NCBI GenBank assembly: GCA_900170005.1
Contig: LT827128.1
Coordinates: forward strand, 3,592,168-3,656,167
DNA from: Gordonibacter massiliensis (ex Traore et al. 2017)
GTDB lineage: Bacteria > Actinomycetota > Coriobacteriia > Coriobacteriales > Eggerthellaceae
Direction: 5' to 3'
DNA length: 64,000 bases
Shown: positions 27,533 to 47,400 of the stretch, in pieces
How the letters are laid out: each line of letters opens with the position of its first letter
How positions within the stretch are numbered: the stretch's first letter is position 1
Program-made: the position numbers and the translations under genes
The notes under the pieces: model-generated
Databases searched by the model: none
Told to the model about the DNA's origin: nothing
What the model saw: only the letters and a program-made list of their open reading frames with translations

Positions 27533-27550
27533 GTCCGTACCTTTCGTTTT

Positions 27551-32626: not shown

Positions 32627-33547
32627 CTATCCGATCAGGTACACCAAGAGCGGTATGGTTCCGACCGAAAGCAGGGTGGAGAGAAACACGCCGCGCGATG
32701 CAAGTCGGTCGTTTCCTCCGTATTGCAGGCAGAGCAACGTCGCATTTGCTGCAACCGGCATCGCCATCAGAAGGACGCCAATTTTGATAAGCAAGGGGTT
32801 CTGAACGACGAGCGATAAGATGGCGAGCGACACGGCGGGCACCAATGCCACTTTTGCGAGAGAGACCAGGTACAGGCCCGGGTTCGCGAACACGTCTTTC
32901 GGCGTTTCCTTTCCGAGCGACGCCCCGGTTATGAGCATAGCCAGGGGCACGGTGGCCGATCCGAGGGTGTCGAAGCATGTTTGGACGATGGCGGGAGCTC
33001 GGAACGTCGTCAGATAGAGCGCGATGGCCGCCACGGACGCAACGAGGCAGGCGTTCACAAACGATCGGGGCTTGATGTTGCGAATGCTCGATTCATCCGA
33101 AACGAGGAGTATCCCGATCGAGAATACGAGGAAGTTGAATGGCAGATTGAATACGGTCGCATAAAAGACGGCTTCGGTACCGAATAACGCACCGATGACG
33201 GGCAACCCGATGAAGCCGGTGTTACCGAACGTCGTCATGAACGAACACAGGCGCCTGTCGCTGCGTGGGAACACGGGGAGCCGTGAGAGCGCGCTCCCAA
33301 TGAGATAGGCGGCTGCGTAGCAGGCGAGCGACGCGAGAAAATAGACGAATATTTCCGCCCCGCTTGCAGAGCGATCTGCGGAAAATCCAGACGAGACTAT
33401 AAAGCAGGGAAGCGTGATGGACATCACCACTTTGGTGACGGCTTTGCAACTCGCGTCATCGAGTATATGCAGCCGGCGCGCTATGAAACCAATGATAATT
33501 CCAACGAACAGAATAATCATCTGTTGAAAGGCTGCTCCTACTCCCAT
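32627..33547 (-). CDS. AEC-family (auxin efflux carrier-like) permease
   Basis: A 306-aa transporter with about ten helices, opening QMIILFVGIIIGFIARRLHI and containing ITLPCFIVSSGFSA and FGNTGFIGLPV, the conserved motifs of the AEC family. Bacterial members carry malate, malonate or other organic acids. The start at 33547 lies 2 bp after the stop of the upstream membrane-protein gene, so the two are translationally coupled. The ribosome-binding site is poor, in line with coupling. The nucleoside phosphorylase further upstream suggests, but does not prove, a nucleoside- or base-related substrate. Confidence 0.87.
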   Translation of the reverse strand: MGVGAAFQQMIILFVGIIIGFIARRLHILDDASCKAVTKVVMSITLPCFIVSSGFSADRSASGAEIFVYFLASLACYAAAYLIGSALSRLPVFPRSDRRLCSFMTTFGNTGFIGLPVIGALFGTEAVFYATVFNLPFNFLVFSIGILLVSDESSIRNIKPRSFVNACLVASVAAIALYLTTFRAPAIVQTCFDTLGSATVPLAMLITGASLGKETPKDVFANPGLYLVSLAKVALVPAVSLAILSLVVQNPLLIKIGVLLMAMPVAANATLLCLQYGGNDRLASRGVFLSTLLSVGTIPLLVYLIG

Positions 33548-33549
33548 GT

Positions 33550-34221
33550 CTACTGGTCGCCTGCTTTTTTCGATGCCGAAGTGCTCTTTTTCTTGCCTTG
33601 CTGTTTCTGCCAAGCGACCCTCATCGGTTTGAGCTTCTTGAGTTCGAGATAGACCGCTCCGAACAGGAAAATGTACGAAGAGGTCAGAACGAGGATGGGC
33701 GTTGTAGTGTCGCCGGGGTTCATTCTGATAAGAGCCATTGCGCTGAACATGATGACAACGGCTACGACAATGAGCACCCGCCATAACAAGCGCGTCCGCT
33801 TGTATTCACGCGTTTGAGGGTGCTTACTGCTTTTCGCCAAGCTTGCAGGGGGCTCTGGTGCCCGCTTTCCCTTCTTGCCGCCTTTGGCGCGCATCGAAGG
33901 GTTCTGCTCCCTTTTCAGCGCATCGTTCCAAGCGCGTATGTCGGCTTTTATGGGGCGCACGCGCATGAAGGTTATGAATAGGATGACAGCGACGAAGATG
34001 TAGCTGCCCATGATCATCATGAATTGAACCTCGCCGTCGATGACGCCTCCTTTGTAGAGCGCCATCGACGCACCAAGCAATGCGATGCAACACGTCCCCA
34101 AAGCAAACACGGCATATCGATATTTCCGATACATACTCAACAAAGCAGTGATCGTCTCGTCACTTGGCTGGTCGTGTACGGTTTGCTCAACAGTGGGTGG
34201 ATGCGGTATGCTGTGTTTCAT
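33550..34221 (-). CDS. four-helix membrane protein of unknown function
   Basis: A 223-aa protein with two helix pairs (about 37-58 and 66-86, then 145-166 and 173-192) joined by a highly basic cytoplasmic segment (REQNPSMRAKGGKKGKRAP). The C-terminus is again Lys-rich. The two halves look like an internal duplication: each has a helix pair followed by a basic stretch with a K-P pair. I do not recognise a family. The start at 34221 has AAGGAAC; the gene ends 2 bp before the AEC permease start. Its codon use is less GC-biased than the genome average. Confidence 0.7.
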   Translation of the reverse strand: MKHSIPHPPTVEQTVHDQPSDETITALLSMYRKYRYAVFALGTCCIALLGASMALYKGGVIDGEVQFMMIMGSYIFVAVILFITFMRVRPIKADIRAWNDALKREQNPSMRAKGGKKGKRAPEPPASLAKSSKHPQTREYKRTRLLWRVLIVVAVVIMFSAMALIRMNPGDTTTPILVLTSSYIFLFGAVYLELKKLKPMRVAWQKQQGKKKSTSASKKAGDQ

Positions 34222-34300
34222 GACATGTTCCTTATTTTTATGAAGCAAATGATAATATTTATATAAACAAAAATAAATAATATAGTCAACCAGATTATTA

Positions 34301-35098
34301 TCAAAATGAGCTGTCAATATCTATTCGAGTGGTTATGGCAAGGGCCATCTTGAAAGCGATCGCTCGTGCATCGAGGTTCGACATCCAATCGCGCGTGTCG
34401 TGCCGACCCGATACGCAGAGACTGTCGCCGCTGTAAAGAATTTCGACGAAGCGCGCTCCGCAAGCCTGCGAAACGGCTACCAGTGCGGCGCATTCCATAT
34501 CGACCGCATCACAGCCCTCACGTTTCCTCTTCTCGACGAGGTGCGGCGTTTCGCGAAAGAAACCGTCGGTTGTCCATGTTTTGCACGTGCGAAAAGGAAC
34601 TTCCTGCTCCTCGAGCAAGCGGCATGCCGCCTTGACCGCGCCGACGTCGAGCACGATGTCGCGGGCGGGAGCGCAATAGCAAAACGAGGTCCCCTCGTCT
34701 CGCAACGCTTCTGTCGGTACCAATATCATGCCTGATGATATTGGTGATAGGACACCACAGCCACCACATGCGACCAATACTTCAACGCCTGACGAAATAA
34801 GAAGGTCGGCCATGATGGCTGCGGCGGGCGCTCCGACCGGCGCTTGAACGAGGCAGACGCTCGTATTGCGAACGCGATCGCGGTAGATAGGGAAGTCGCG
34901 GGTTTCCGAGTGAAGGACGGCGATTCGCTCGCATCCTCGTTCTTCAACATAGTGCTCCAAAACGTCGCCCATGAAGCTCATGAGGCAGCGGATGGGAAGA
35001 GCGCTGCCGTCGGGGGCGGCGAGGGGAGGGCGGGACATAGGATTGCGCGGTTCGCTGCAGTCGTGATCGAAGAGCGGGCAGTCTGTTATCTTGCTCAT
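34301..35098 (-). CDS. nucleoside phosphorylase (uridine/purine phosphorylase family)
   Basis: A 265-aa enzyme of the PNP/UDP phosphorylase superfamily, which splits nucleosides with phosphate into base and ribose-1-phosphate. Evidence is the phosphate-binding-type segment LVACGGCGVLSP, the TTDGFFRET loop, and the ribose-binding VDMECAALVAVSQ motif with the catalytic Glu. The start at 35098 has AAGGGAG; an upstream start would add an unconserved AT-rich stretch. It is the first gene of the minus-strand group with the membrane protein and AEC carrier. It diverges from the B12 operon across an AT-rich regulatory region. The exact base specificity is not clear. Confidence 0.87.
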   Translation of the reverse strand: MSKITDCPLFDHDCSEPRNPMSRPPLAAPDGSALPIRCLMSFMGDVLEHYVEERGCERIAVLHSETRDFPIYRDRVRNTSVCLVQAPVGAPAAAIMADLLISSGVEVLVACGGCGVLSPISSGMILVPTEALRDEGTSFCYCAPARDIVLDVGAVKAACRLLEEQEVPFRTCKTWTTDGFFRETPHLVEKRKREGCDAVDMECAALVAVSQACGARFVEILYSGDSLCVSGRHDTRDWMSNLDARAIAFKMALAITTRIDIDSSF

Positions 35099-35150: not shown

Positions 35151-35222
35151 ATTAACATATGATACAAATAAATAAAAATATAGTTAATAAATATTGACAA
35201 AGAAGTTACAGCACTTTAATCT
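35151..35222 (+). promoter_or_regulatory. AT-rich promoter of the B12-mutase operon
   Basis: A perfect -35 TTGACA (35194-35199), a 17-bp spacer and a -10 TAATCT (35217-35222) place the transcription start near 35229, just before the cobalamin riboswitch. ATTAACATAT (35151-35160) and TATAGTTAA (35179-35187) lie upstream and recur near the promoter of the other cobalamin-riboswitch operon. Confidence 0.8.
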
Positions 35223-35235
35223 AGCGAACAAAGAA

Positions 35236-35425
35236 CGCTACGGGTTCGGCTGCATTATCGGCCGTCCAAGGGAAGCAGGTGAGAATCCTGCGCTGTACCG
35301 CAGCTGTGAGTGCATGAACCGGTTCGGGGACTGAGGTTCCCGAAAGCCACTGGGAAACTGGGAAGGCGAACCGGGTGGAGCGAAAAGCCGCTCCCATGCC
35401 AAGCCAGAAGACCTGCCGGTAGCGA
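35236..35425 (+). promoter_or_regulatory. cobalamin riboswitch
   Basis: The RNA has the conserved core GGTGAGAATCCTGCGCTG, CCGCAGCTGTGA, AAGCCACTGGGAAACTGGGAAGGCG, and a B12 box AGCCAGAAGACCTGCC at 35402-35417. The strong promoter ends about 15 bp upstream. It should sense adenosyl- or related cobalamin and control the mutase operon. Normally B12 represses such operons, which is odd for a B12-using enzyme. About 385 nt of leader separate it from glmL. Confidence 0.92.
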
Positions 35426-35531
35426 ATGAGCATGGCGGCGACGCGTATCGCCCTCCATGAGGCGCTTGGGAGCAACGGGCGCTGTGTAGCGAGCCTTATA
35501 CCGGTTCCGCGCATGGAAGGGGACGAATGAC

Positions 35532-35636
35532 ATGCTGAACACGTTCCGTCACATCGATCTGAATTCCTTCGAAGAAGCGGCTCTTGCCTGCCTTGGCAGT
35601 CAACCTGCTTTTCTCGCCTTCGGCAGACGCTCGTAG
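35532..35636 (+). CDS. candidate 34-aa leader peptide after riboswitch
   Basis: A short reading frame starts at ATG 35532 with AAGGGG nine bases upstream and ends TAG at 35634. The peptide begins MLNTFRHIDLNSFEEA and ends AFGRRS. It has no repeated codon that would suggest attenuation. Two hairpins follow (35651-35681 and 35695-35721). I do not recognise it. It is either a real small protein regulated by the riboswitch or part of the expression platform. Confidence 0.4.
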   Translation: MLNTFRHIDLNSFEEAALACLGSQPAFLAFGRRS

Positions 35637-35650
35637 GCCCGTTCCTTGGT

Positions 35651-35721
35651 GACTTACCGGGCTCACCCCAACCCGGTAGTCAGAATTCCTCCTTCCCCTC
35701 CGAGTATGTGCCTCGGAGGGG
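35651..35721 (+). promoter_or_regulatory. two leader hairpins upstream of glmL
   Basis: Hairpin 1 pairs 35651-35661 with 35672-35681 (one bulge). Hairpin 2 has a 10-bp perfect stem (35695-35704 with 35712-35721) and a TATGTGC loop. A pyrimidine tract, TTCCTCCTTCCCC, before hairpin 2 is complementary to purine-rich AGGAAGGAAGG after it. No T-run follows, so control of translation or mRNA folding fits better than intrinsic termination. Confidence 0.45.
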
Positions 35722-35821
35722 TTCAGGAAGGAAGGGCGTCAATCATCTTATCGCCTGAATATTTACTGGTTTGTATAAGGCGCTGTCGGTTCTCATGATG
35801 AAAGGAAGGGGAGACAAGCTC

Positions 35822-37330
35822 ATGGAAGCCTATCTGCTCATCGATTTTGGAAGCACGTACACCAAGGTTACCGCGATCGACCTTGAAGAGGAGGTCGTTC
35901 TCGGCACGGCTCAGGCGTCGACCACCATCGAGACGGACGTTCGCGTCGGTCTCGACGAGGCGCTCGGGCTGCTTCAGGCCGCGTGCGGGCTCGGTCTTGA
36001 CGACTACGCAGGGAAATACGCCTGCTCGTCAGCCGCAGGCGGTCTCAAAATGGTTTCGATCGGGCTCGTGCCGTCGCTTACGCTCGAGGCCGCCCGCCGC
36101 GCCGCACTCGGTGCCGGAGCCAAAGTCATCGGATCCTACGGATACGAGCTTTCGAGCGCGCAGGCTGTCGAAATAGAGGGGATGACGTGCGACATCGTCA
36201 TGCTGGCGGGAGGAACGAACGGCGGCAACAAGGATGTGATCCGTCACAATGCCGATATGCTGGCGCAGACAAGCATAGCATGTCCTATCCTCGTCTGCGG
36301 CAACACGGCAGTGCAAGACGAGATCGCCCAGAAGCTCGAAGCATCGGGAAAGAAAGTCTACCTTGCCGACAACGTCTTGCCAGAAGTCGATCAGGTGCGC
36401 GTCGAATCCGCCCAGAGCGTCATACGGGAGATATTCGTCAAGCATATCACCAAGGCGAAGGGGCTCGAGTATGCGGCGAGGTTCATCGGCCGCGACATCA
36501 TTCCCACGCCCAAAGCCTCGCTCAACGCCGCGACGCTTATCGCCGAAGGCTCCAAGCACGAGTCGGGCATGGGCAGCGTTTTAGTGCTCGAGATCGGCGG
36601 AGCGACCATCAACGTGCATTCCGTTGAGGAGGTGAAGCCCGTTACGCCGCAGACCATCGTGCGTGGTTTGCCCGAGAACAAGGTCAAGCGCACGGTCGAG
36701 GGCGACTTGGGCATCCGGTGGAACGCGAACACCATCTGCGAGCTGGTGGGCGTCGAGACGATCATGGACAATCTACGCAAGGTCGCCCCCGACATCGACG
36801 TCGATTCGGTCGACCCCGCAACGTTCACCTCTTTTCTTGCGCGCAACACGTCTCATAAGCCAGAGACCCCAGCGGAATGGGCGTTTGACATCGCTTTGGC
36901 GTATTCCGCCGCCGATGTGGCGGTTCGCCGCCATGCGGGAACGGCCCGCAAGGAAACGGTCGCCATTGGGGAAGTCGACGTGCAGCGAGGCAAAAACCTA
37001 CTCGATGTGCGCAACGTGATCGGCATCGGAGGCATCTTCCGTTACGGGCAGCATCCTGAACGCATCCTGCCCGCCGCGGCTTACGATCTTAAAAACCCAG
37101 AGAGTCTCAGGCCTGTGCATCCGAATTTCTATCTGGACACGACCTATGTGCTCTATGCCGTCGGCCTGCTTTCCCAGGATCATCCCGATCAAGCTCTGCG
37201 CATTGCAAAGAAATACCTGAGGCCCGTCGACGTCGCAACGGCACTCCCGGTTTCGGGCGGTTACGCCAATCGCGGAAGCTCTTTGGGCGAGATGGAGCAC
37301 GGAGGCTGCGGCGGCTTGATGACCCACTGA
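35822..37330 (+). CDS. glmL: GlmL/MutL-type glutamate mutase accessory ATPase
   Basis: A 502-aa protein of the MutL/GlmL family, actin-fold (ASKHA) ATPases encoded between or beside the subunits of glutamate mutase and thought to reactivate or protect the B12 enzyme. The N-terminal phosphate-binding motif is LIDFGSTYTKVTAID. A second motif, VLEIGGATINVHSVEE, lies near residue 258, and GIGGIFRYGQHPERIL near the C-terminus. It is slightly longer than classical GlmL (about 460 aa). The ATG at 35822 has GGGGAG at good distance; 35771 is a weaker upstream alternative. It is the first full gene after the cobalamin riboswitch. Confidence 0.92.
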   Translation: MEAYLLIDFGSTYTKVTAIDLEEEVVLGTAQASTTIETDVRVGLDEALGLLQAACGLGLDDYAGKYACSSAAGGLKMVSIGLVPSLTLEAARRAALGAGAKVIGSYGYELSSAQAVEIEGMTCDIVMLAGGTNGGNKDVIRHNADMLAQTSIACPILVCGNTAVQDEIAQKLEASGKKVYLADNVLPEVDQVRVESAQSVIREIFVKHITKAKGLEYAARFIGRDIIPTPKASLNAATLIAEGSKHESGMGSVLVLEIGGATINVHSVEEVKPVTPQTIVRGLPENKVKRTVEGDLGIRWNANTICELVGVETIMDNLRKVAPDIDVDSVDPATFTSFLARNTSHKPETPAEWAFDIALAYSAADVAVRRHAGTARKETVAIGEVDVQRGKNLLDVRNVIGIGGIFRYGQHPERILPAAAYDLKNPESLRPVHPNFYLDTTYVLYAVGLLSQDHPDQALRIAKKYLRPVDVATALPVSGGYANRGSSLGEMEHGGCGGLMTH

Positions 37331-37354
37331 ACGAAGCGGTCTCGCTCGCTTCGT
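37331..37354 (+). other. intergenic hairpin after glmL
   Basis: An 8-bp perfect stem (ACGAAGCG at 37331-37338, CGCTTCGT at 37347-37354) begins at the stop codon. No T-run follows, so it may stabilise the upstream mRNA or set relative expression rather than terminate. Confidence 0.4.
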
Positions 37355-37443
37355 GTAACACGACGCGTGCGAAAAAAATGAAAAGGCAAGCGCCGGCGAA
37401 CCCGGTGCCGGTCGAGTTCTGCCAAAGGAGCGGAGCGCGAGAT

Positions 37444-38823
37444 ATGAAAGGATGCGGCATGAAGGTAGAAGACAAAGTGGTCTCGTTCATTGAGAATGCT
37501 ACGTACGACGACCTGAACGCAACCGATATCGACATCGTGAAAAAGCAGATCCTGACCTACGTTGGGTGCGTGATCGCGGGCAGCTCGAACATGGGATGCG
37601 AAGAAGTCGTCGATATCGCCAAAGACCTCGGGGGCAAAGAAGAAGCCACCATCCTCGTGCACGGTGGCAAGGTGCCAGCTCAGCAAGCCGCCTTTGCTAA
37701 CGGCGTCATGGGTCGCGCGCTCGACGTGTGCGACCATATCAAGCCCGGCATGCATGTCGGCTCCGGCATGATCCCTGCCATTTACGCTGTTGCCGAGATG
37801 AAGGGAGGGATCAGCGGCAAGGAGTTCATCAACGCCATCGCCGTCGGCGACGAGGTGGCCCTGCGTCTGAACCTGCTGGAAAAGGACTACCACGGATTCG
37901 ATCCGACGGGCATCGCCGGCGTGTTCGGGGCGGCTGCGGGGGCGGCGAAGATATGGGGTATGTCCCATAAGGAAATACTGCATACGCTTGCTCTAGCCTT
38001 CAACCGCGCGGCGGGAAGCTTCCAGTGCAACATCGACGGGGCGTTGGCTGTGCGCGTTATCGAAGGATGGATCGGCCAGGCCGGCGTCGAATGCGCGCGT
38101 CTGGCATCCAAGGCCATCACCGGTCCCGTTGACTTTCTCGACGGCGTGTACGGATACTTCAACCTGTTCACGAACGGTCGCACGAGCGGCGAAGAGATAT
38201 TCGCCGGCTTGGGGGAAGAGCCGCTGCGCACGTACACGCTCGGCTTCAAGAAGTATCCGAGTTGCGGTATGACGCAGGGTTCCACCGAGCTTATCTTGAA
38301 CATGATGGCGAAGCACGGTTTCTGCGCCGACGACGTCGAACGTATTGTGCTCACAATGCCGACCTACGGGTACAACTTGGTCGGCAATTTCAAACTGGGC
38401 GATAATCCCAAGGTCAATGCGCAGTTCGGCACGCCGTACTGCATCGCCAATGCGCTTGTGCGCAAGGGGGTCAAGCTCGAGCACTTCGAGCCGGAGTTCA
38501 TCATGAACGACGAGGTTCTGGAATTCACGAAGAAAATCGAGTCTGTTTGCGATCCGAGCCTCGACCCCATCCGCCCGCACTATGCATCCGACATCAAAGT
38601 CGTCTGCAAGGACGGCGGCATCTACGAGGGCTCCATCGACATCTCGCCCGGTACCGAAGAAGCGCCGCTCGAGGACGAAGACTTCAAGCGCCGCTTCTAC
38701 GACTGCATCGATTTCGCGAAGAAGCCCTTCCTCGAAGAGCGGGCGGACGAGATATATCGGAAGTGCCTCGATGTTGCCGACATGGGAAACGTCGACGAGC
38801 TGTTCCACTTCATGACGAATTGA
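37444..38823 (+). CDS. MmgE/PrpD-family protein (dehydratase/decarboxylase/isomerase fold)
   Basis: A 459-aa member of the MmgE/PrpD family, which includes 2-methylcitrate dehydratase, cis-aconitate decarboxylase and iminodisuccinate epimerase. Family features are ALDVCDHIKPGMHVGSGMIPA near residue 96, GFDPTGIAGVFGAAAGAA near 153 and KKYPSCGMTQGSTELI near 277. It is cofactor-free and cytoplasmic. Two starts are possible: 37444 and 37459, each with a usable ribosome-binding site. In this operon it should add or remove water (or CO2) on a branched di- or hydroxy-carboxylate, before or after the B12 mutase. The classical methylaspartate pathway uses methylaspartase and mesaconase here instead, so this gene marks a different route. 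Confidence 0.9.
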   Translation: MKGCGMKVEDKVVSFIENATYDDLNATDIDIVKKQILTYVGCVIAGSSNMGCEEVVDIAKDLGGKEEATILVHGGKVPAQQAAFANGVMGRALDVCDHIKPGMHVGSGMIPAIYAVAEMKGGISGKEFINAIAVGDEVALRLNLLEKDYHGFDPTGIAGVFGAAAGAAKIWGMSHKEILHTLALAFNRAAGSFQCNIDGALAVRVIEGWIGQAGVECARLASKAITGPVDFLDGVYGYFNLFTNGRTSGEEIFAGLGEEPLRTYTLGFKKYPSCGMTQGSTELILNMMAKHGFCADDVERIVLTMPTYGYNLVGNFKLGDNPKVNAQFGTPYCIANALVRKGVKLEHFEPEFIMNDEVLEFTKKIESVCDPSLDPIRPHYASDIKVVCKDGGIYEGSIDISPGTEEAPLEDEDFKRRFYDCIDFAKKPFLEERADEIYRKCLDVADMGNVDELFHFMTN

Positions 38824-38858
38824 TCGATCGAAGCCAGAAGGGGAAGGCGGCGAGAAAC

Positions 38859-40283
38859 ATGCTGGACAACGAAGATCAGGGTCGGTGGGACGAAATTGCG
38901 GACGTTGTCGTCGTAGGGTCGGGCTTCGCCGGGCTCGTTGCGGCGAGCGAGGCCGCGAAAACCTATGAGCGCGTGCTCGTTTTGGAGAAGATGCCCTACA
39001 GCGGCGGGAACTCGCGCATCGCGGGCGGAGGCTACTGCTGCTGGGACAGCAAGCTCAAATTGCGTGAAGAGCTTGGTCTGGGCGAGGACTCCTGGCAAGC
39101 GCACTTTGACGACACGATGAAGGCAGGCGGGCTCTACAACGCGCCGGAACTCGTCGAGGTGCTGGCGAGGGAGGCTCCGGCAGGACTCGACTTTTTGGTG
39201 GACGCGGGCATCCCGTTTCGAAAGAGCCTGCCGCGCATCGGGGGCCATTCGGCGTATCGCAGCTATCAGATAGCGTGCTCGGGAAGCGAGACGATGGACC
39301 TTTTGCATGAAGCGTGCTTTGCGAGCGGCCATGTGGAGCTTCGTCGCAACGCCGCAGTGCGCGACCTGTTCAGAGAGGGCTGGCGTCCGTTCGCCGACAA
39401 TGTCCCCGGGCGAGTGCTGGGCGTTGCCGTGGCGGATGGCGGCACGGTCAAGAAGATCCGTGCGAAATACGGCGTGATCATCGCATCGGGGGGATACGGG
39501 CGCGATGTGGAGCTGCGCACGGTTTACAAGCCGTCGTTGAGCGCTGCCTACAACTGCACGAATCACAAAGGCGCGACCGGAGAGATGATCCGCTTCGCTA
39601 AATCAGTCGGCGCCGATGCGGTTCATATGGAGTTCGTGCAGCTGTATCCCTGCGCCGACCCCAAAACCGGGGGCATCGACCAGGCGGCGTTCTTGTGCTA
39701 TTCGGGCACCGGCTACGGGCTCGTCTACGTGAACGGCGCTGGGCGGCGATTCGTCAACGAGCTGGCGAGCAGGGAGGATGTTTCAAACGCGCAGATGAAC
39801 GCGGGCGGCAAACCAACCTATTCGATTTTGAACGACCGGATCTTCGAGCTGCTCGGAATTGGCGCGGACGATATCGCGCGGCTGGTTGAGCGAGGGCGTG
39901 CCTGCAAGGCTGCCACGCTTTCCGGCCTTGCCGAACAAGTGGGCTTCGACCCCGCCATCTTCGAAGAGGACATCGCACGGCACAACACGGCTATCTCGAC
40001 CGGTGTCGACGAGGCGTTCGGCAAGCCGATGACGAGCCAGATGGTTCCTTTAGACTCCGGGGATTTCTACGCAATACCTCAGTGGCCGTCCGTCCACTAC
40101 TGCATGGGTGGTTTGCGTATCGACGCGAAGGCCCGCGTCATCGATATAGAGGGGAAGCCCATCCCGGGCCTCTACGCGGCTGGCGAGGTGTGCGGCGGCG
40201 TGCACGGGATCGACCGGTTAGGAGGTAACGGTATTGCCGAGTGCATAGTTTTCGGGCGAATAGCCGGTCGTCTTGGGTGTTGA
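38859..40283 (+). CDS. fumarate-reductase/urocanate-reductase-type FAD flavoprotein, cytoplasmic
   Basis: A 474-aa FAD-binding_2 family oxidoreductase. The dinucleotide motif is VVVVGSGFAGLVAASEAA and the C-terminal FAD and active-site region is GGVHGIDRLGGNGIAE. It lacks a Tat signal, FMN-binding domain and heme domain, unlike the many exported reductases of this family in Eggerthellaceae, so it should draw electrons from a soluble donor. Family members reduce C=C bonds conjugated to a carboxylate (fumarate, urocanate, acrylate derivatives) or oxidise ring carbons. Within the operon it would reduce or oxidise an unsaturated acid made by the PrpD-like step. The ATG at 38859 has AAGGGGAAGG. 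Confidence 0.9.
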   Translation: MLDNEDQGRWDEIADVVVVGSGFAGLVAASEAAKTYERVLVLEKMPYSGGNSRIAGGGYCCWDSKLKLREELGLGEDSWQAHFDDTMKAGGLYNAPELVEVLAREAPAGLDFLVDAGIPFRKSLPRIGGHSAYRSYQIACSGSETMDLLHEACFASGHVELRRNAAVRDLFREGWRPFADNVPGRVLGVAVADGGTVKKIRAKYGVIIASGGYGRDVELRTVYKPSLSAAYNCTNHKGATGEMIRFAKSVGADAVHMEFVQLYPCADPKTGGIDQAAFLCYSGTGYGLVYVNGAGRRFVNELASREDVSNAQMNAGGKPTYSILNDRIFELLGIGADDIARLVERGRACKAATLSGLAEQVGFDPAIFEEDIARHNTAISTGVDEAFGKPMTSQMVPLDSGDFYAIPQWPSVHYCMGGLRIDAKARVIDIEGKPIPGLYAAGEVCGGVHGIDRLGGNGIAECIVFGRIAGRLGC

Positions 40284-40335
40284 AACGCGGCCGGTTGCTG
40301 GATTTTGTCGAATAAGAAACGAGGAGGTACGTAAT

Positions 40336-41808
40336 ATGGCACGACAAGGAGAGGCTATCCGCAACGTGCGACTCGATGATGAGGAGTTCTTCCGCATCAG
40401 AAACGAAGAGGTTCTGCCCATGTGGAAGACGGGGCGGGAGATAGCCGACTTCGACGAGTGCATCGCTGCGGCCAAGGAGCTTTCGGCGGGTAAAAACTAC
40501 GCCGAACGGCAACTTGCAGCGCGCGAGAACGAGGTGCACAACCTGCAACCGCAGTTCGGGCATGCGTTGACCGAGCAGCTGCTCGAGGGCGTGCAGTATG
40601 TTGAGAGCGAGTCTCCGCTCCTGCCGAATGGCGTGTGGAACTTCTACACGGACTCCTACACGCGAAAATGCAGCTTCGACATGGCCCAAGTGGGTCTCGA
40701 GCGCACGAAAGCCGAAGGGCAGACCATGCTCAACGGCTATCCCATCGTGAACCACGGCGTCGAGGAGGCTCGCAAGGTGAAGCGAGCCGTTCGGGCTCCG
40801 ATAACGATGAACTCCACCGATGAAGATGGGCGGCTCGCTTCCGAGATCGCGCTTGCTTCCGGCTGGAATGCCTGCAACTGCCGCTCGCTTCAAGAAGTTA
40901 TCGCACACTGCAAGTACATCGACCTTGCCGACGAGATACGCATCAACCAGTACGAGTCGCGGCTTGCTGCGAAGTACACCGAGGCCGGCGTGCCCATTGC
41001 GCCCCATATCACATCCAACCTGACCGGCTACGATGCCCCTGGGTTCAAAGCCCTCGTCATGACGTCGCAGACGCTTATCGGCGCGGCTCAGGGCATCAAG
41101 CAGTTTTACTTCGAGCTCGGCCTCAACATGCATCTCATTGAGGATTGCGCCACCATCAATGTCACCGAGAAGCTGGCGCGCGAGTACTTGGACAAGTTCG
41201 GCTACACCGACATCAAATTCTCGTCTGGCGCGTTTCCGTTTTTGGGCGCATGGCCTCCCCGCATAGACGAAGCCGAGGCGATGATCGCCTGGAACACGGT
41301 GGACACGTTCCTGGCTGGCATCGACACGGCTATTCTCAAATGTCGCGATGAGGCGTTTGCCACGCCGACCAAGGAGGGCATGTCGAACGCGGTTCGCATG
41401 GCGCGCCATCTGGATACGCTCATTGGCAGGCAACACGTGGACACCTCGGGCGCGGATTACCGTCTGGAGGAGCAGATGATCGAACTCGAGGTTCGCTCCA
41501 TTTTGGACAAGTGCCTCGAAGTGGCCGATGGCGATGCGGTCGTCGCGTTGTGCAAGGGCGTCGAGGCGGGCTGGATCGATGCCATGCTCACTCCGTGGGT
41601 GCACAACCACGGCAACGTGCGCCTCATACGCGACGCCGAGAAGGCTCAGCGCTATTGGGATATGGGCGACTTGCCTGTGCCGCAAGAGGTGCGCGATTAC
41701 CACCGCAAGAAGTTGGAGAGCCGGGCAAAAATAGAAGGTCGCCCCCTTGATTTCAGCATGCTGGTTGGCGACCTTCAGTTCGCTTCGCGCATCGCCCCCC
41801 AGGTGTAG
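40336..41808 (+). CDS. glutamate-mutase-like epsilon (E) subunit with altered substrate pocket
   Basis: A 490-aa TIM-barrel catalytic chain of the adenosylcobalamin-dependent glutamate mutase family (GlmE/MutE). It keeps the family frame: EEFFRIRNEEVLPMW near the start, MLNGYPIVNHGVEEARKV, and GRPLDFSMLVGDL at the end. In Clostridium cochlearium GlmE the substrate is held by Arg66, Arg100, Arg149, Glu171, Tyr177 and Tyr181. In my by-eye alignment the matching residues are Gln73, Arg110, Asn159, Asn181, Glu187 and His191, so only one of six is kept. The true substrate is probably not glutamate. The start at 40336 has GAGGAGG. The gene lies between the flavoprotein and the S subunit. Confidence 0.88.
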   Translation: MARQGEAIRNVRLDDEEFFRIRNEEVLPMWKTGREIADFDECIAAAKELSAGKNYAERQLAARENEVHNLQPQFGHALTEQLLEGVQYVESESPLLPNGVWNFYTDSYTRKCSFDMAQVGLERTKAEGQTMLNGYPIVNHGVEEARKVKRAVRAPITMNSTDEDGRLASEIALASGWNACNCRSLQEVIAHCKYIDLADEIRINQYESRLAAKYTEAGVPIAPHITSNLTGYDAPGFKALVMTSQTLIGAAQGIKQFYFELGLNMHLIEDCATINVTEKLAREYLDKFGYTDIKFSSGAFPFLGAWPPRIDEAEAMIAWNTVDTFLAGIDTAILKCRDEAFATPTKEGMSNAVRMARHLDTLIGRQHVDTSGADYRLEEQMIELEVRSILDKCLEVADGDAVVALCKGVEAGWIDAMLTPWVHNHGNVRLIRDAEKAQRYWDMGDLPVPQEVRDYHRKKLESRAKIEGRPLDFSMLVGDLQFASRIAPQV

Positions 41809-41854
41809 ACGCGTGTCGAGTCGAATGAATCGAGAAGGAGGAGGTACGGGTTTC

Positions 41855-42295
41855 ATGAGTGAAACGAAGAAAGCGCCGAACAAGGCCGTCGTCATCGGCA
41901 CCATCGGCAAAGACGCCCACATGATCGGGGGCTGGGTGCTCACCCAGGCGTTCCGCGACGCAGGCTACCAGGTGGCTTTCCTGGGTGCGGTTGTACCGCA
42001 AGAGGAGTTCATCAACGCCGCTATCGAGATCAACGCCGACGCCATCTTGTGCTCGTCCTTGTACGGCATGGGCATCATCGATTGCGAGGGCATGCGTGAA
42101 AAGTGCGTCGAAGCCGGCATCGGGGACATCCTGCTGTATGCAGGCGGGCAGGTTGCCGCGCCGCTCGACTTGGTGAACAAATGGCCCGAGATCGAGCGCC
42201 GCTTCGCCGATATGGGTTTCAACCGCGTGTTTCAAAATACCGTCACAGCCGAAGCGACCGTCGAGATTCTCAACAAGGATCTCGGTCTTTCGTAA
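41855..42295 (+). CDS. glutamate-mutase-like sigma (S) subunit, B12-binding
   Basis: A 146-aa Rossmann-like cobalamin-binding subunit. The B12 motif DAHMIGG (Asp20, His22, Gly25) supplies the lower cobalt ligand His22. SSLYG (67-71) and YAGGQ (near 92) complete the family pattern that cradles the nucleotide tail. Length fits GlmS/MutS (about 137 aa). It pairs with the E subunit to form the active mutase at their interface, carrying out a radical carbon-skeleton rearrangement. The ATG at 41855 follows AGGAGGAGG. Unlike the E subunit, it has kept all its hallmark residues, as expected if only substrate choice has changed. Confidence 0.92.
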   Translation: MSETKKAPNKAVVIGTIGKDAHMIGGWVLTQAFRDAGYQVAFLGAVVPQEEFINAAIEINADAILCSSLYGMGIIDCEGMREKCVEAGIGDILLYAGGQVAAPLDLVNKWPEIERRFADMGFNRVFQNTVTAEATVEILNKDLGLS

Positions 42296-42320
42296 CGGGC
42301 TTTAAGGAGGGGAATGCGTT

Positions 42321-43922
42321 ATGGAACTATTGATTTCGTTTGTGCCCGTTATCCTTATCTTGGTTTTGATCGTCGGGTTCAAGGTTCGCGGGGACATCGC
42401 AGGTATCGTCGGTTGGGTGGCCGTCATGGCCGTCGCCTACTTCTTTTTCGATACGGGAATCGACATCGGGCTGATCGCGTCGGCAAAGGGCGCCCTTGCT
42501 TCGATGGCCGTCACCGGCATGGGCTTCTTCGCCTTGCTGCAGATCACGTTCATGCAGGAGACCGGCGCCTTGCAGCGTGCCGTTGTGGCCATCAAGACGC
42601 TTGCTCCGGGCAGCAAGGCCTGCCAGATCATGATCGTCAACGTGATTATCGGCACGGCGCTGGTTTCCGTCGGTGCCACGCCGGCAATCATCTTGCCGCC
42701 AATCATGTTCGCCATGGGTTACTCGGTTATCGTATCCATTGCCCTGCCGTGCATTGGCTACGACTCGCTGTGCACGTTTGCAATGCTCGCTGCTCCTGTA
42801 GTTACGCTGTCTGACATCCTCACGGGGGCTGGCTTCACGATGCCCGACGGGGGCGCTCCCACCGTGCAGCATATCGCCATCTTCTTCTCGCACTATCTGC
42901 CGGTCATCACGCCGTGCATCTGCATTGCCATGCTCTTGATGGCGGGGGGTCCGAAACTGCTCAAGCAAGGCATAGTGCCCGCGCTCATCACGGGCCTCGG
43001 CATGGGCTTTACCGCCATGGCCGTTTCCTACATCGGCTACGGCATCGTGTTGACGGGCGTCATCGCCGCTGCGGTCACTTTGGCGATCATGATTCTTTAC
43101 ATGAAGCTGCGAAAGATACCGCTGATCGATCGATCTGTTCTCACCGAGGAAGATTTGGAAGCGGAGAAATCGATGCCGTTGTGGAAGGCGCTGAGCCCTT
43201 GGGCGCTGCTGATCGTCTTCTGCTTGGTCACGAACTTCATCCCGCCGCTGTACGACCTTTTGTATACCGATCTTGAGGCGAGAATCATCTTGTTCCCCGG
43301 CGATGCCGGCCAGCCTTTGCGCCCGCTGTGGCAGGCGTACTTCTGGGTGCTCGTATCCACGCTCGTGGCTTCATGGCTCATCATCAAGCCGAAAAAGGGA
43401 ACGTGGGGCGCGATACTCAAGAAGTGGAACAAGCGCTGGGCTCCGCCCACCATCAGCTCCATCATCTACTTCTGCATAGCCTACGTCATGATGTACTCCG
43501 CGTATACGGCGACTGGTGACGGCGGTGCCTGGGTCTTGGTCGACCAGGGCAAGAACATCATCAGCCTCTGGGCCAATGCGGCTGCTGACGCGTTCGGGTG
43601 GTTCTATCCCATCGCCAACGGCTTCCTCGGTTTGGTGTCGGGCTTTGTCACGGGTTCCGAAACGTCCACCGTGGCGCTGTTCGCAAAGTACAACCTTATC
43701 AGTTCCGAGATCTTGGGGTTGAACCCGCTCGTGGTTATCGCCTCTGGCGGCATCGCGGCCGGCCTGGCATCGGTTATTACCCCCGTCAAGCTGCAGCAGG
43801 CGTCTTCTTCCATCGACAAGATCGGCGAAGAGGGGGGCGTGTTGCGTCGCGTGTTCCCTTACGCGCTTATCTTGGTGGCGATTTCGGTGGTCATGTCGCA
43901 GTTCTTCGCGGTGACCTACTAG
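42321..43922 (+). CDS. L-lactate permease family (LctP) transporter
   Basis: A 533-aa permease with 12-14 predicted helices. The LctP/LldP family patterns are GTALVSVGATPAIILPPIMF in the first half and GFVTGSETSTVALFAKYN in the second. Known members import lactate, glycolate and similar 2-hydroxy-monocarboxylates with protons. In this operon it is the only transporter and probably brings in the substrate of the B12 pathway, which would therefore be a small hydroxy- or unsaturated carboxylate rather than glutamate. The ATG at 42321 follows AAGGAGGGG. A 10-bp GC hairpin after the stop marks the likely end of the main transcript. Confidence 0.88.
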   Translation: MELLISFVPVILILVLIVGFKVRGDIAGIVGWVAVMAVAYFFFDTGIDIGLIASAKGALASMAVTGMGFFALLQITFMQETGALQRAVVAIKTLAPGSKACQIMIVNVIIGTALVSVGATPAIILPPIMFAMGYSVIVSIALPCIGYDSLCTFAMLAAPVVTLSDILTGAGFTMPDGGAPTVQHIAIFFSHYLPVITPCICIAMLLMAGGPKLLKQGIVPALITGLGMGFTAMAVSYIGYGIVLTGVIAAAVTLAIMILYMKLRKIPLIDRSVLTEEDLEAEKSMPLWKALSPWALLIVFCLVTNFIPPLYDLLYTDLEARIILFPGDAGQPLRPLWQAYFWVLVSTLVASWLIIKPKKGTWGAILKKWNKRWAPPTISSIIYFCIAYVMMYSAYTATGDGGAWVLVDQGKNIISLWANAAADAFGWFYPIANGFLGLVSGFVTGSETSTVALFAKYNLISSEILGLNPLVVIASGGIAAGLASVITPVKLQQASSSIDKIGEEGGVLRRVFPYALILVAISVVMSQFFAVTY

Positions 43923-43985
43923 GAAATCCGGTTTAACGTTCAAGCCGGATCGTTTCCGCTGCACTCGGCGATCCGCTTCGAGCGA

Positions 43986-44014
43986 GACGGGGCCGCCTTA
44001 GGGACGGCCCCGTC
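43986..44014 (+). terminator. GC hairpin after lactate-permease-like gene
   Basis: A perfect 10-bp stem (43986-43995 with 44005-44014) and a 9-nt loop. No T-run follows. A new -10 box (TATACT, 44024-44029) begins 10 bp later, supporting a transcript boundary. Confidence 0.55.
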
Positions 44015-44023
44015 GAAGCGGCG

Positions 44024-44029
44024 TATACT
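44024..44029 (+). promoter_or_regulatory. -10 box for the pduO-like gene
   Basis: TATACT lies 45 bp before the ATG at 44074, directly after the GC hairpin. It would give the adenosyltransferase and DUF1847 genes riboswitch-independent expression. Confidence 0.45.
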
Positions 44030-44073
44030 TGTCCGATACGGCACGGGCCACCGATGCATGAGGAGGTTCTTCG

Positions 44074-44589
44074 ATGGCGAAGGTTTACACAAGGACGGGA
44101 GACCAAGGCGAGACCTCGCTATACTCGGGCGAGCGCGTTCCCAAATGCTGTCCACGCATCGACGCCTACGGCACGGTGGACGAGCTGCAGGCTTCACTGG
44201 GCTTGGCTCGCGCGTTTGTTTCCCATGAAAGCGTGGGGGAGGTGCTCTACGAGCTGCAGCGCTCGCTCGTTCACGCGATGGCCGAGATGGCGACGTTGGG
44301 GGGCGAAGCGCGTATCCGCGCCGAAGAAGTGGAGGGTCTTGAGCAGACGATCGACAAGTTCAGTGCTCTCATCCCCTCCGGTTTTTCCTTTCAGGTTCCT
44401 GGAGAATCTGCCGGTTCGGCCGCATTGCATGTTGCGCGAACCGTTGCCCGTCGATGCGAGCGAGTGATTCTCGCTAGCATCGATGAGGGGCTGGCGACTT
44501 CGGCTACGCTTGCATTTTTCAACCGTATATCAGATCTCTGCTATGTGCTCGCTCGATACGAGGACGAAGCCAAGGAGGAGGAGCGATGA
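44074..44589 (+). CDS. PduO-type ATP:cob(I)alamin adenosyltransferase
   Basis: A 171-aa enzyme of the PduO/MMAB family that makes adenosylcobalamin. The N-terminal ATP-binding motif TRTGDQGETSLYSGERVPK is clear, as is the RRCERVILA motif in the C-terminal helix bundle that binds ATP. It directly follows the mutase operon and should load its coenzyme; PduO enzymes often hand AdoCbl to a partner mutase. The ATG at 44074 has TGAGGAGG. It has its own -10 box and overlaps the next gene by ATGA. It is not related in sequence to the CobO enzyme at 27014. Confidence 0.93.
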   Translation: MAKVYTRTGDQGETSLYSGERVPKCCPRIDAYGTVDELQASLGLARAFVSHESVGEVLYELQRSLVHAMAEMATLGGEARIRAEEVEGLEQTIDKFSALIPSGFSFQVPGESAGSAALHVARTVARRCERVILASIDEGLATSATLAFFNRISDLCYVLARYEDEAKEEER

Positions 44590-45257
44590 GCTACGACAAC
44601 AAGAGTTGCGCGAACTGCGGTGTGTTCCATTGCGATCATTTAGACAGCGATTGGCCCGGGTTCTGCATGACTACCCACACGCCAGACGAAGAGTTCGACT
44701 ACGCTCTCGACCAATACAACAACGATCCGGAGACGTCCAAAATATTCAAGGCGGCAGCGGAAATCGAGGGACTGTACTACGGTCGTTTGACGAGGGTTGA
44801 GGAGGTCGTGCTCTTCGCCCAGAAGATCGGTGCAAAAAAGATCGGCATCGCAACTTGCATGGGTCTGGTGCACGAATCTCAGAAGTTCGCAAAGGTGCTC
44901 AAGGCGAAGGGGCTCGACAGCGTGTGCGCGGTTGTGTGCAAGGTGGGCGGCATCGACAAGACGAAAGCCGGTATTCCCGACAACGTGAAAGTGCGCCCGG
45001 GCGAGCACGAGTCCACGTGCAACCCCATCGTGCAGGCGCGTATCCTCAACAAGGAAGAAACGGATCTCAATGTGATTGTCGGTTTATGCGTCGGTCACGA
45101 CACGTTGTTCATCAAGCATTCGGAGGCGCCGGTAACCTATTTGATCGTGAAGGATCGCGTGCTTGCGCACAATCCGGCTGCGGCCCTTTATACGACGGGA
45201 TCGTATTACAAGCGTCTGCTTTCGCCGGAAACAATGCCGGCGCGTCCGTTGGGGTGA
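44586..45257 (+). CDS. DUF1847 cysteine-rich protein
   Basis: A 223-aa protein of the DUF1847 family. It has an N-terminal metal-type site (CANCGVFHCDH), then an alpha/beta domain with FAQKIGAKKIGIATCMGL, VCKVGG, STCNPIVQA, and LCVGHDTLF. These proteins are common in anaerobes and have no proven function; the conserved cysteines suggest a metal or corrinoid role. The coupling with the PduO enzyme (ATGA overlap) suggests a part in B12 handling or mutase maintenance, which is inference. A 15-bp perfect hairpin lies 75 bp downstream. Confidence 0.85.
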   Translation: MSYDNKSCANCGVFHCDHLDSDWPGFCMTTHTPDEEFDYALDQYNNDPETSKIFKAAAEIEGLYYGRLTRVEEVVLFAQKIGAKKIGIATCMGLVHESQKFAKVLKAKGLDSVCAVVCKVGGIDKTKAGIPDNVKVRPGEHESTCNPIVQARILNKEETDLNVIVGLCVGHDTLFIKHSEAPVTYLIVKDRVLAHNPAAALYTTGSYYKRLLSPETMPARPLG

Positions 45258-45473: not shown

Positions 45474-46043
45474 TTACAAGGGGAGGGGGGTGTCTGCTTT
45501 TTGCCCGTCGAGCTTTTTGCGCACTCGACTGACCGAAACCCGATGCATGCCCATGAACGTGGCGAGAGTTGCATCGCTGATATGCTCGCCTTTTAACTCG
45601 TCTATCTGCGAAAAAATGTCTTCTAAGTATTTGAGCTGGTCTTCGGACGCATCGAGCGCGGCGTGCTTATACTTTGCGAGCGTGCTTGTGAACTGGTCGT
45701 GGTAATGTTCAGCCAGCAGCCAGCCAAGCTCTGGATTTTCTTTAAGGTGTCGATTGATCTCTTCGGACGGATAGCGGACGAGTACGCAGTCAGTGAGGGC
45801 ATGCAACGGAAGCATGGTGTCTTCGTCGAGCGAGTGAATCATGCAGTTCTTCTGCCAGATGGTGTTGGCGAGCTCCTCCTCTCCGCACTCGGATTGAGCG
45901 GTGGTGAATAGAACCCCCTCTTTCACGAACCATGTATACGTTCGTGTGCCGCAAGAAATGACGTACACGCGCCCTTTCTTACAATGAAACTCTTCGCCCA
46001 CGAAGCGGTCTTCCGCCCAAGATGCAAGCAAACTATCGGTCAT
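45474..46043 (-). CDS. CRP/FNR-like regulator (paralogue 1)
   Basis: A 189-aa protein with a cyclic-nucleotide-binding-like beta-roll (residues about 10-110) and a C-terminal winged helix-turn-helix whose recognition segment is ISDATLATFMGMHRVSVSRVRKKL. No N-terminal FNR-type cysteine cluster is present; cysteines at 21, 31, 53, 67 and 86 are spread out. The effector is unknown. It is paralogous to 46181-46735, 137 bp away on the same strand. A perfect CRP-type dyad, TATGTTA-N6-TAACATA, lies 51-70 bp upstream, pointing to self-control. The gene sits between the B12-dependent operon and the B12-uptake operon, which makes both possible targets. Confidence 0.87.
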   Translation of the reverse strand: MTDSLLASWAEDRFVGEEFHCKKGRVYVISCGTRTYTWFVKEGVLFTTAQSECGEEELANTIWQKNCMIHSLDEDTMLPLHALTDCVLVRYPSEEINRHLKENPELGWLLAEHYHDQFTSTLAKYKHAALDASEDQLKYLEDIFSQIDELKGEHISDATLATFMGMHRVSVSRVRKKLDGQKADTPLPL

Positions 46044-46180: not shown

Positions 46181-46735
46181 TTATAGGGGCTTCTCTTTGA
46201 CAAGCTTTTTTCTGATTCTGCTTACCGATACGCGGTGCATGCCCATGAATGAGGCAAGGGTTGCATCGCTGATGCGTTCTCCTTTTAGCTCGTCGATGCC
46301 CATGAACATATCCTCAAGATAAGCGAGCCTGTCTTCGGACGCATCCAGGGCGGCGTGACGGTAGTTCGAAAGCGTTCTGGTGAACTGATTGTGATAATAT
46401 TCCGCAAGCCACCAGCTCAACTCGGCATCTTCCCTAATCTGTCGATTGAGGTTTTCCGACGAGTAACGAACGATCGTGGCGTCGGTCAAGGCGTGAAAGG
46501 GCAGCATGATGTCTTCGTCGAGAGAATGCACCATGTTATTCTTTCTCCAGATGCTGTTGGCAAGCTCCCCTTCGCTGTTCTCGGTTTGCATGGCCGTGAA
46601 CATGACGCCTTCCTTGATGAACCATGTATAGGTTTTCCTGCCGCATGACAAGACGTACACCTGGTCTTTCTTGCAATGGAACTCTTCGCCCTCGTTATGC
46701 TCATGTGCCCATTGCGCGAATGCGGCTTCGTCCAT
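46181..46735 (-). CDS. CRP/FNR-like regulator (paralogue 2)
   Basis: A 184-aa paralogue of the preceding regulator with the same beta-roll pattern (GEEFHCKKDQVYVLSCGRKT) and an almost identical recognition helix region (SFMGMHRVSVSRIRKKL), so the two proteins should recognise the same DNA site. The ligand domains differ more, which suggests that two signals act on one site. The start at 46735 has AGGAAC; 46771 is a longer alternative. It diverges from the tandem cobalamin riboswitches across a 250-bp AT-rich stretch. Confidence 0.87.
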   Translation of the reverse strand: MDEAAFAQWAHEHNEGEEFHCKKDQVYVLSCGRKTYTWFIKEGVMFTAMQTENSEGELANSIWRKNNMVHSLDEDIMLPFHALTDATIVRYSSENLNRQIREDAELSWWLAEYYHNQFTRTLSNYRHAALDASEDRLAYLEDMFMGIDELKGERISDATLASFMGMHRVSVSRIRKKLVKEKPL

Positions 46736-46859
46736 GTCCGTTCCTTCTCTTGCTTCCGGGATCCGAAGCACATGCTGTGCTGGATCGCCCTTTCCTGTTG
46801 CGTGGATTTTCGCTCGGTCATCAGCTTCGAATGACCTCTTGCCATTGGAGGTACATCAT

Positions 46860-47145: not shown

Positions 47146-47400
47146 ATGACGCTTCACGAAAGCATGCTGAAAAAGCGTCCCTATCGGACAAGCTCGGTCT
47201 TCTTTAATGGATTTGCCCCTCCTGATGCTAGAATACCCGCAACAGAATACTGGCACAGATGGTTGCGCCGGGCACGGCGCGGAGCTTGCCTAAAGGCTGC
47301 TCTAGGGGAATGCGGGTGTGAATCCCGCGCTATACCAGTAACCGTAAACGCAGATGGACGAGAAGCCTTCCGTGTATGCAGCGGGATCTCGTACAGTTGA
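47146..47400 (+). pseudogene. short reading frame between tandem riboswitches (possible remnant)
   Basis: The ATG at 47146 sits after the first riboswitch exactly as the surface-protein ATG sits after the second. The frame runs 84 codons (begins MTLHESMLKKRPYRTSSVFF) but passes through the conserved core of the second riboswitch, so its C-terminal half is unlikely to be selected as protein. It is either a leader peptide, a decayed gene start left by duplication of the riboswitch, or not translated. Confidence 0.3.

Follow-up and report, generated by a model that had tools for sequence, protein, structure and literature searches.

A cobalamin-riboswitch operon of Gordonibacter massiliensis encodes a glutamate-mutase-like enzyme with a rebuilt substrate pocket and an epimerase-like PrpD-family partner

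We analyzed a 64,000-nucleotide stretch of Gordonibacter massiliensis DNA (assembly GCA_900170005.1, contig LT827128.1, positions 3,592,168 to 3,656,167 of the forward strand), hereafter the window, from a genome of 3.95 Mb in one contig. The window carries a plus-strand operon for a variant glutamate-mutase-like enzyme behind a cobalamin riboswitch. Its features are listed below in window coordinates; the start of glmL was picked by eye as the ATG following GGAAGGGG.

35225..35434, plus strand: cobalamin riboswitch RF00174, the operon leader (Rfam 87.9 bits, gathering score 31.5)
35822..37330, plus strand: glmL, accessory protein of the MutL/GlmL family (NF040745 526.6 bits, cut-off 475)
37459..38823, plus strand: MmgE/PrpD-family protein, read here as a putative epimerase (PF03972 162 bits, PF19305 92 bits)
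38859..40283, plus strand: flavin adenine dinucleotide (FAD) reductase of the flavocytochrome c / urocanate reductase type, 474 aa (TIGR01813 377, cut-off 285)
40336..41808, plus strand: mutE, large subunit of the variant glutamate-mutase-like enzyme (PF06368, Met_asp_mut_E, 305 bits)
41855..42295, plus strand: mutS, B12-binding small subunit with DxHxxG (TIGR01501, GlmS, 151.7, cut-off 135.8)
42321..43922, plus strand: divergent LctP-family carrier (PF02652, Lactate_perm, 90.5 bits)
44074..44589, plus strand: PduO-type cobalamin adenosyltransferase (TIGR00636 145.5, cut-off 108)
44586..45257, plus strand: DUF1847 protein (family match), overlapping the PduO stop and adjoining the operon in the window and in loci L009-L012

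The gene order glmL-prpD-reductase-mutE-mutS was repeated in all 4 other loci of the Eggerthellaceae type (L009-L012), and a cobalamin riboswitch was identified ahead of the operon in all 5 loci of this type, so the arrangement is not due to chance. The operon, which a sequence-only reading had described as a plus-strand gene set under a cobalamin riboswitch, was thus confirmed by the riboswitch score, the family matches, and the order kept in the 4 sister loci. Among these, PduO was found in L009 and L010 only, and the LctP-like carrier in L009, L010, and L012, with L011 stopping at a contig edge. Among clostridial loci, 4 were searched (L013, L014, L015, and L018), and none had a cobalamin riboswitch at or above the gathering score.

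The main finding concerns the substrate pocket of the mutase. According to an excerpt of PMC9545868, R66, R149, and E171 of glutamate mutase hold the glycyl part of the substrate, and R100 and Y177 hold the acrylate part. In variant MutE, the equivalents are Q73 (R66), N159 (R149), N181 (E171), and E187 (Y177), with R100 kept as R110; 4 of these 5 contact residues were swapped identically in all 14 distinct variant rows, whereas canonical MutE had R, R, E, R, and Y (R66/R149/E171/R100/Y177) in 38 of 38 distinct rows. The arginine claw of R66, R100, and R149, together with E171, accordingly reads Q, R, N, and N in 14/14 variants, and the window's MutE scored below the TIGR01503 equivalog cut-off (286.2 vs 390.1 bits). 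Residues gained include E187, E260, R183, and K238, with R183 invariant among variant MutE proteins. The residues taken to line the rebuilt pocket are Q73, R110, N159, N181, R183, E187, H191, H224, and E260. The cofactor side was retained: the DxHxxG motif of the B12 subunit was present in 11 of 11 MutS rows, GlmL and GlmS scored above their own cut-offs, and the equivalents of K326 and E330, which we take to be ribose contacts in glutamate mutase, were kept in all 12 variant rows reaching them.

Out of 479 alignment columns compared, 55 had one constant residue shared by the 2 groups, and 40 were constant within each group but different between them. Six of 7 substrate residues fell into the constant-but-different class, against 34 of 472 other columns (Fisher, p ~2e-6, with columns treated as independent); H150 and Y181 were counted among these 7 on roles that we assume. 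Restricted to columns constant in both groups, the comparison was 6/7 vs 34/88 (p 0.04), and of the 5 residues named in the cited paper alone, 4 were constant but different. The aligned rows were the loci returned by family, peptide, and profile searches (30 listed in one of them) and not all matching genomes; same-genome duplicates (L022-L028, L031, and L033), a fragment (L074), and one identical canonical row were excluded before counting. Judged by its residues, the mutase of the operon resembles glutamate mutase without being one.

A third class of MutE, of about 640 aa and fused to its own B12-binding domain, was identified at L081:8132-10051 (plus strand), L082:6127-8061 (minus strand), and L083:6741-8675 (minus strand). 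It adjoins a GlmL-like gene, and a glycyl radical enzyme with its activase lies beside it in 2 of the 3 loci, along with iron alcohol dehydrogenases (some neighbors were named by eye). Proteins of this class keep the arginine claw and have Pro and Trp at the E171 and Y177 positions; they possibly belong to another undescribed mutase pathway.

We searched 84,980 species genomes with 2 peptide patterns taken from the variant MutE alignment (GWNACNC and EAMI[AC]WN) and obtained 13 loci. On the Coriobacteriia side these came from Gordonibacter sp. 28C (L009), Candidatus Aphodovivens, and 2 other Coriobacteriia/Eggerthellales metagenome-assembled genomes (MAGs) related to the window at the family level, and on the Bacillota side from Sporobacter termitidis, Clostridiales Family XIII MAGs, another Clostridiales MAG, and a Peptococcaceae MAG; isolate names suggest a termite-gut origin for the Family XIII and Clostridiales MAGs. 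Profile searches, which are independent of the chosen peptides, were run on groups from 2 orders (393 and 394 genomes) and gave variant matches of 542-1001 bits, the lower values belonging to genes cut by contig ends. Apart from 2 short pieces of variant genes (75 and 39 bits), all other matches scored at most 346 bits, leaving a clear gap without intermediates. Within the window's class (396 genomes, E 1e-50), only known carriers were found, in 4 of 396; the fifth, G093, was undrawn or unmatched. Variant MutE formed a single clade with a support of 100/100 across Eggerthellaceae and Bacillota; the tree program gave a warning of long branches joining.

For the window plus the 13 loci, glmL lay near mutE in 12 of 14, a prpD-like gene in 12, and mutS in 11, and 2 of the 3 loci without mutS end at a contig edge. 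In all 5 loci of the Eggerthellaceae type, the flavin reductase gene is flanked by prpD and mutE. As to whether the gene set recurs in other anaerobes, which the sequence-only reading had left to a search, glmL-prpD-reductase-mutE-mutS was found in L009-L012, but the reductase and prpD are not universal among carriers. Further genes of the termite-type loci encode peptide-type ABC transporters, CocE/NonD hydrolases, a cupin-like protein (transporters and cupin named by eye), URO-D-like proteins, an unassigned protein of 227 aa, and a thiamine pyrophosphate (TPP) enzyme (some copies named by eye), and near the Sporobacter mutase genes we identified an OYE, a PF04199 cyclase, a DASS-type carrier, and a molybdopterin enzyme. 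These neighbors hint at aromatic or ester substrates, deciding nothing. One Family XIII MAG carries 2 copies of mutE, one accompanied by mutS (L017) and the other directly followed by a TPP-dependent enzyme (L018:11477-13180, plus strand) in the position of mutS. Proteins without a Pfam match lie close to the mutase genes at L015:14773-15456 (plus strand, 227 aa) and L017:436-1116 (plus strand, 226 aa), and that of L015 adjoins a URO-D-like protein.

The second enzyme of the operon belongs to the MmgE/PrpD family, in which 5 residues hold 2 carboxylates alongside a catalytic His; for the IDS-epimerase, H85, D88, H99, H150, K198, and K266 are listed (PMC12290011, in excerpt). From this list we deduce that H99 is the catalytic His and that the other 5 are the carboxylate holders. 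His99 and Tyr144 of the PrpD-like protein, which align with H99 and Y145 of the IDS-epimerase, were invariant in 12 of 12 rows, giving the catalytic His and Tyr pair of two-base epimerases. D89 and K264 (the D88 and K266 equivalents) were likewise invariant in 12/12, whereas H85 is replaced by R86 (12/12), H150 by D148 (12/12), and K198 by V (9 rows) or G (3 rows). The 5-residue site for a four-carbon dicarboxylate is thus not preserved, with 2 residues kept and 3 replaced. As described in excerpt in PMC12290011, the IDS-epimerase and the (S)-(R)-methylsuccinate isomerase share with the operon protein the fold family, the catalytic His, the extra Tyr, and the Lys266 equivalent, and differ from it in those 3 carboxylate-holding residues.

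A profile of 10 orthologues ranked the IDS-epimerase first among solved relatives (137.7 bits), followed by B. subtilis IRG1 (134.0 bits) and the cis-aconitate decarboxylases (122-127 bits), with the 2-methylcitrate dehydratases weakest (42.8, 38.9, and 23.1 bits). Against the NF042438 equivalog, a model that covers PrpD of high-GC Gram-positive bacteria only, the window protein scored 29.3 bits vs a cut-off of 950. The name 2-methylcitrate dehydratase was dropped on these 2 results. Residues and profile ranking together make the protein look more like an epimerase than a dehydratase, and we read it as a putative epimerase or isomerase.

The third enzyme, the flavin reductase, has no heme or flavin mononucleotide (FMN) domain and no signal peptide evident by eye, and it is probably cytoplasmic. 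Residues were mapped by script on an alignment to a flavocytochrome c3 for 7 orthologues (window, L009-L012, L084, and L090). An excerpt of PMC7921117 describes a one-carboxylate network common across the family, gives Tyr373 as the mark of urocanate reductase, and states that Asp388 (or Asn or Gln) is required for urocanate. Like urocanate, fumarate, and methacrylate reductases, all 7 orthologues keep the Arg402, His504, and Arg544 equivalents, which cover the one-carboxylate and proton-donor positions, and Tyr stands at the Tyr373 position in 6 of 7. They differ in the fumarate reductase pair for the second carboxylate, with Tyr (6 orthologues) or Phe (L084) at His365 and Cys at Thr377 in 7/7, and in the Glu378/Arg381 relay, where the first position has Tyr in 5 and Phe in L011 and L012, and the second Thr in 5, Ala in L084, and Pro in L090. 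The Asp388 position, taken as Glu378 of fumarate reductase, is thereby Tyr or Phe in all 7. Urocanate and fumarate were ruled out as substrates by these residues. According to an excerpt of PMC4427408, methacrylate reductase also lacks the 2 fumarate-specific residues.

We examined the carrier genomes for a methylaspartate pathway. The methylaspartase family PF07476 was not above its cut-off (27 bits) in 11 of 12 variant carrier genomes (the best match in G000 was 24.1 bits), and the twelfth, the Peptococcaceae genome G143, gave 28.7 bits over part of the domain only. All 6 canonical genomes scored 380-399 bits in the same search. Because the glutamate-holding residues are lost and a convincing methylaspartase is lacking, the ordinary methylaspartate pathway was ruled out.

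Several observations link the other genes to the mutase. The variant mutE of G143 is truncated at the end of a contig, and another contig end of the same genome (L084) holds a mutE C-terminus, mutS, and then a 655-aa fusion of PduO with the reductase, whose reductase part is 50% identical to that of the window; both contig ends presumably hold one mutE gene. Among 138 genomes of the family, 31 had some reductase match at E 1e-60, and an identity of at least 67% was reached only in the 5 carriers, with others reaching 38% (the best 11 candidates were scored in most genomes). The place of the reductase in the system, already proposed from the sequence alone, is therefore borne out by the fixed order, the fusion, and this distribution. 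The LctP-like protein (E 1e-40) was found in 7 of the 138 genomes, namely the 5 carriers, G050 (69%), and G060 (39%); the window's copy is below the TIGR00795 lctP cut-off (81.4 vs 341 bits) and above that of PF02652. G050 lacks a MutE match; there, the LctP orthologue neighbors a molybdopterin enzyme (region L091:8450-13429, minus strand). Acetylene hydratase is the best solved relative of this enzyme, which shares 38% identity with the molybdopterin enzyme found near the mutase operon of Sporobacter. Adenosyltransferases occur near the mutase across lineages: PduO in the window, L009, and L010, PduO fused in G143, and CobA in L014 and L019 (the latter by eye). A second corrinoid adenosyltransferase, of the CobA/BtuR family, lies about 8 kb upstream of the operon in the window (27014-27670, minus strand).

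On the opposite strand, the operon is flanked by the following genes.

34301..35098, minus strand: divergent PNP_UDP_1 gene (nucleoside phosphorylase/nucleosidase; family match), in exact co-occurrence with mutE in the family
33550..34317, minus strand: small membrane protein between the phosphorylase and the AEC-type carrier, no Pfam match
32627..33784, minus strand: AEC-type carrier, possible exporter (PF03547)

The phosphorylase (E 1e-20) was identified in 5 of the 138 family genomes, which are exactly the 5 variant carriers, and this divergent gene is a member of the gene set of the operon. By eye, a similar small membrane protein was found at the same place in L009-L012, and the AEC-type carrier also in L009 and L012.

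All 3 enzymes keep one-carboxylate or catalytic residues, and in all 3 the site for a second carboxylate or for the glycyl part is changed, which points to a monocarboxylate with a distal group X. The substrate is probably an acid other than a dicarboxylate. Our leading reading, held at somewhat under an even chance, is an undescribed, B12-regulated carbon-skeleton pathway in which the mutase and a PrpD-like epimerase would act on a free monocarboxylate and the flavin reductase would feed the mutase. From the residues and gene neighborhoods we infer its reactions, with their order and direction, as follows. The mutase, with GlmL and the adenosyltransferase, would use a 5'-deoxyadenosyl radical as glutamate mutase does and would shift X, neither glycyl nor carboxylate, between X-CH2-CH2-COO- and CH3-CH(X)-COO-. 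The PrpD-like protein would invert the new 2-methyl center, so that the pair would follow the scheme of methylmalonyl-CoA mutase and its epimerase, with a free acid as substrate. The flavin reductase would reduce the acrylate X-CH=CH-COO- to X-CH2-CH2-COO-, supplying the mutase and taking up electrons; the LctP and AEC carriers would move acids in or out, and the phosphorylase may clear 5'-deoxyadenosine.

Of the proposals in the sequence-only reading, the unassigned pathway distinct from the methylaspartate route agrees with the residues and the methylaspartase search, and import of a hydroxy or unsaturated acid through LctP, with its reduction as an electron sink, is plausible. Its candidate substrates (glutamate, itaconate, 2-methyleneglutarate, 2-hydroxyglutarate, and citramalate) are disfavored, being dicarboxylates while the second-carboxylate or glycyl sites of the 3 enzymes are altered, and the dehydration step it included is disfavored by the more epimerase-like residues and profile ranking of the PrpD-like protein.

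Several points weigh against the monocarboxylate pathway. In the mutase, the search peptide GWNACNC covers N181, so the invariance at this position is partly selected; R183 might stand in for the missing arginines and bind a second carboxylate in a different pose, and E187 beside R110 could mean that the R100 site itself works differently. The window's PrpD-like sequence searched alone places B. subtilis IRG1 (86.6 bits), whose function is called undetermined in an excerpt of PMC12290011, before the IDS-epimerase (79.6 bits); with the cis-aconitate decarboxylases also close, sequence rank by itself is a weak guide, and the protein may instead be a dehydratase or a double-bond isomerase. In Sporobacter, the MmgE/PrpD homologue is no more than 31% identical, and with a prpD-like gene in 12 of 14 loci, the epimerase is not universal. 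The flavin family includes dehydrogenases, so the direction of this enzyme may be reversed. No reductase orthologue (E 1e-40) was found in the 5 termite-type carrier genomes searched (G139-G142 and G466), and the 60% identical reductase of Sporobacter (L090) is unlinked to the mutase operon, which places the reductase outside the universal core. By eye, no pathway gene was recognized around L090, where no family search was run.

The substrate may be a dicarboxylate after all, for example, with 2-hydroxyglutarate converted to 3-methylmalate, then to mesaconate by the PrpD-like protein, and finally to methylsuccinate. The gene set suits such a chain of mutase, dehydratase, and reductase, the invariant R183 would take the place of R66 and R149, and LctP-type carriers take 2-hydroxy acids. 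Two of the enzymes fit less well: the reductase has changed second-carboxylate residues (the H365 and T377 equivalents), the PrpD-like protein has lost 3 of 5 carboxylate ligands, and the 2-methylcitrate dehydratases are its weakest solved relatives, so we consider this route unlikely.

A hydroxylated aromatic or heteroaromatic ring as X, with the reductase saturating a cinnamate-type acid and the mutase shifting the aryl group to give a 2-arylpropionate, is similarly improbable. Several features would suit such an X: the acetylene-hydratase-related enzyme adjoining the LctP orthologue of G050, an enzyme of that kind near the Sporobacter mutase operon together with the OYE and the PF04199 cyclase, esterase-like proteins in termite-type loci (BD-FAE in L019, CocE/NonD in L015 and L018), URO-D-like proteins in L015 and L017, and the reductase Tyr at the Tyr373 position. 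However, the Sporobacter genes are on the opposite strand or several kilobases off, the new pocket residues of the mutase are mostly polar, the reductase has Tyr or Phe in place of Asp388, and the Gordonibacter operon itself has no recognized aromatic gene.

A cationic X (amino, imidazole, or quaternary ammonium) is quite improbable. The exchange of R66 and R149 for other residues with the gain of E187 and E260 in the mutase, the change of H150 to D148 in the PrpD-like protein, and the recurrent URO-D-like proteins of termite-type loci would suit a positive charge, but the mutase no longer has E171, which in glutamate mutase holds the amino group, new positive residues appear in the mutase (R183 and K238) and in the PrpD-like protein (R86), and no amine gene was recognized in the operon. 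A small polar X was considered as well. A true, slightly divergent glutamate mutase feeding a methylaspartate branch through an unrecognized ammonia-lyase is strongly disfavored, since 2 of 3 claw arginines and E171 are lost in 14/14 variants, TIGR01503 stays below its cut-off, and no convincing methylaspartase was found, even though GlmL exceeds its equivalog cut-off and GlmS its own.

Known systems resemble parts of the proposed monocarboxylate pathway. Glutamate mutase (GlmES with GlmL, EC 5.4.99.1) likewise has E and S subunits, GlmL, DxHxxG, and the K326/E330 and R100 equivalents, and the window's MutE is 33% identical to a canonical MutE from the same bacterial family (L002); the variant differs in R66, R149, E171, and Y177 and in its TIGR01503 score, and its gene set lacks a convincing methylaspartase and has extra epimerase-like and reductase genes. 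In methylmalonyl-coenzyme A (CoA) metabolism, a radical rearrangement yields a 2-methyl acid whose center is inverted by a partner epimerase. The logic proposed here would be alike, with another mutase subfamily, an MmgE/PrpD-type partner, and no recognized CoA gene in the operon. The 2-methyleneglutarate mutase route of nicotinate fermentation also pairs a B12 mutase with an isomerase, but its mutase is of another, single-chain type and its substrate a dicarboxylate.

A search of the open-licence PMC literature returned no relevant description of the gene set or of the new mutase; the protein families are known, and it is the substrate site of the mutase combined with an epimerase-like partner that was not found described there. 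To our knowledge, the range of substrates of the B12 carbon-skeleton mutases described so far is very small. A cofactor site that is kept beside a substrate site rebuilt alike in 14/14 variants offers a direct lead toward a new radical reaction, which we regard as a possibility. We tentatively propose, as one possible and far from certain outcome, a new class of adenosylcobalamin (AdoCbl) carbon-skeleton mutase in gut and termite-gut anaerobes that would act on a free monocarboxylic acid, moving a group other than glycyl, acrylate, or CoA thioester (aryl, acyl, hydroxyalkyl, or cationic), and would be coupled to an MmgE/PrpD epimerase of 2-methyl acids. The name PrpD would thereby gain a different meaning here that can be tested, and a gut genus may possess a B12-dependent electron sink.

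Further features of the window lie outside the operon. Past its end, 45474-46043 and 46181-46771 (both minus strand) encode a tandem pair of similar regulator-like proteins without a Pfam match, with homologues at a like place in L009 and L010. A large surface protein with DUF4430 repeats (47354-54196, plus strand) is followed by a second DUF4430 protein (54126-55013, plus strand) and an ECF-type S component (57810-58523); this region may be a B12 uptake island. No AdoCbl-II riboswitch scored above the gathering score in the Rfam scan of the window, and such riboswitches were identified at or near the start of a like DUF4430 gene at L009:16691-17044 and L010:18049-18142. At 11644-16579, a LysR regulator, an MFS carrier, and a molybdopterin oxidoreductase stand in series, a row that we take to resemble the dehydroxylase-type clusters of gut Eggerthellaceae.

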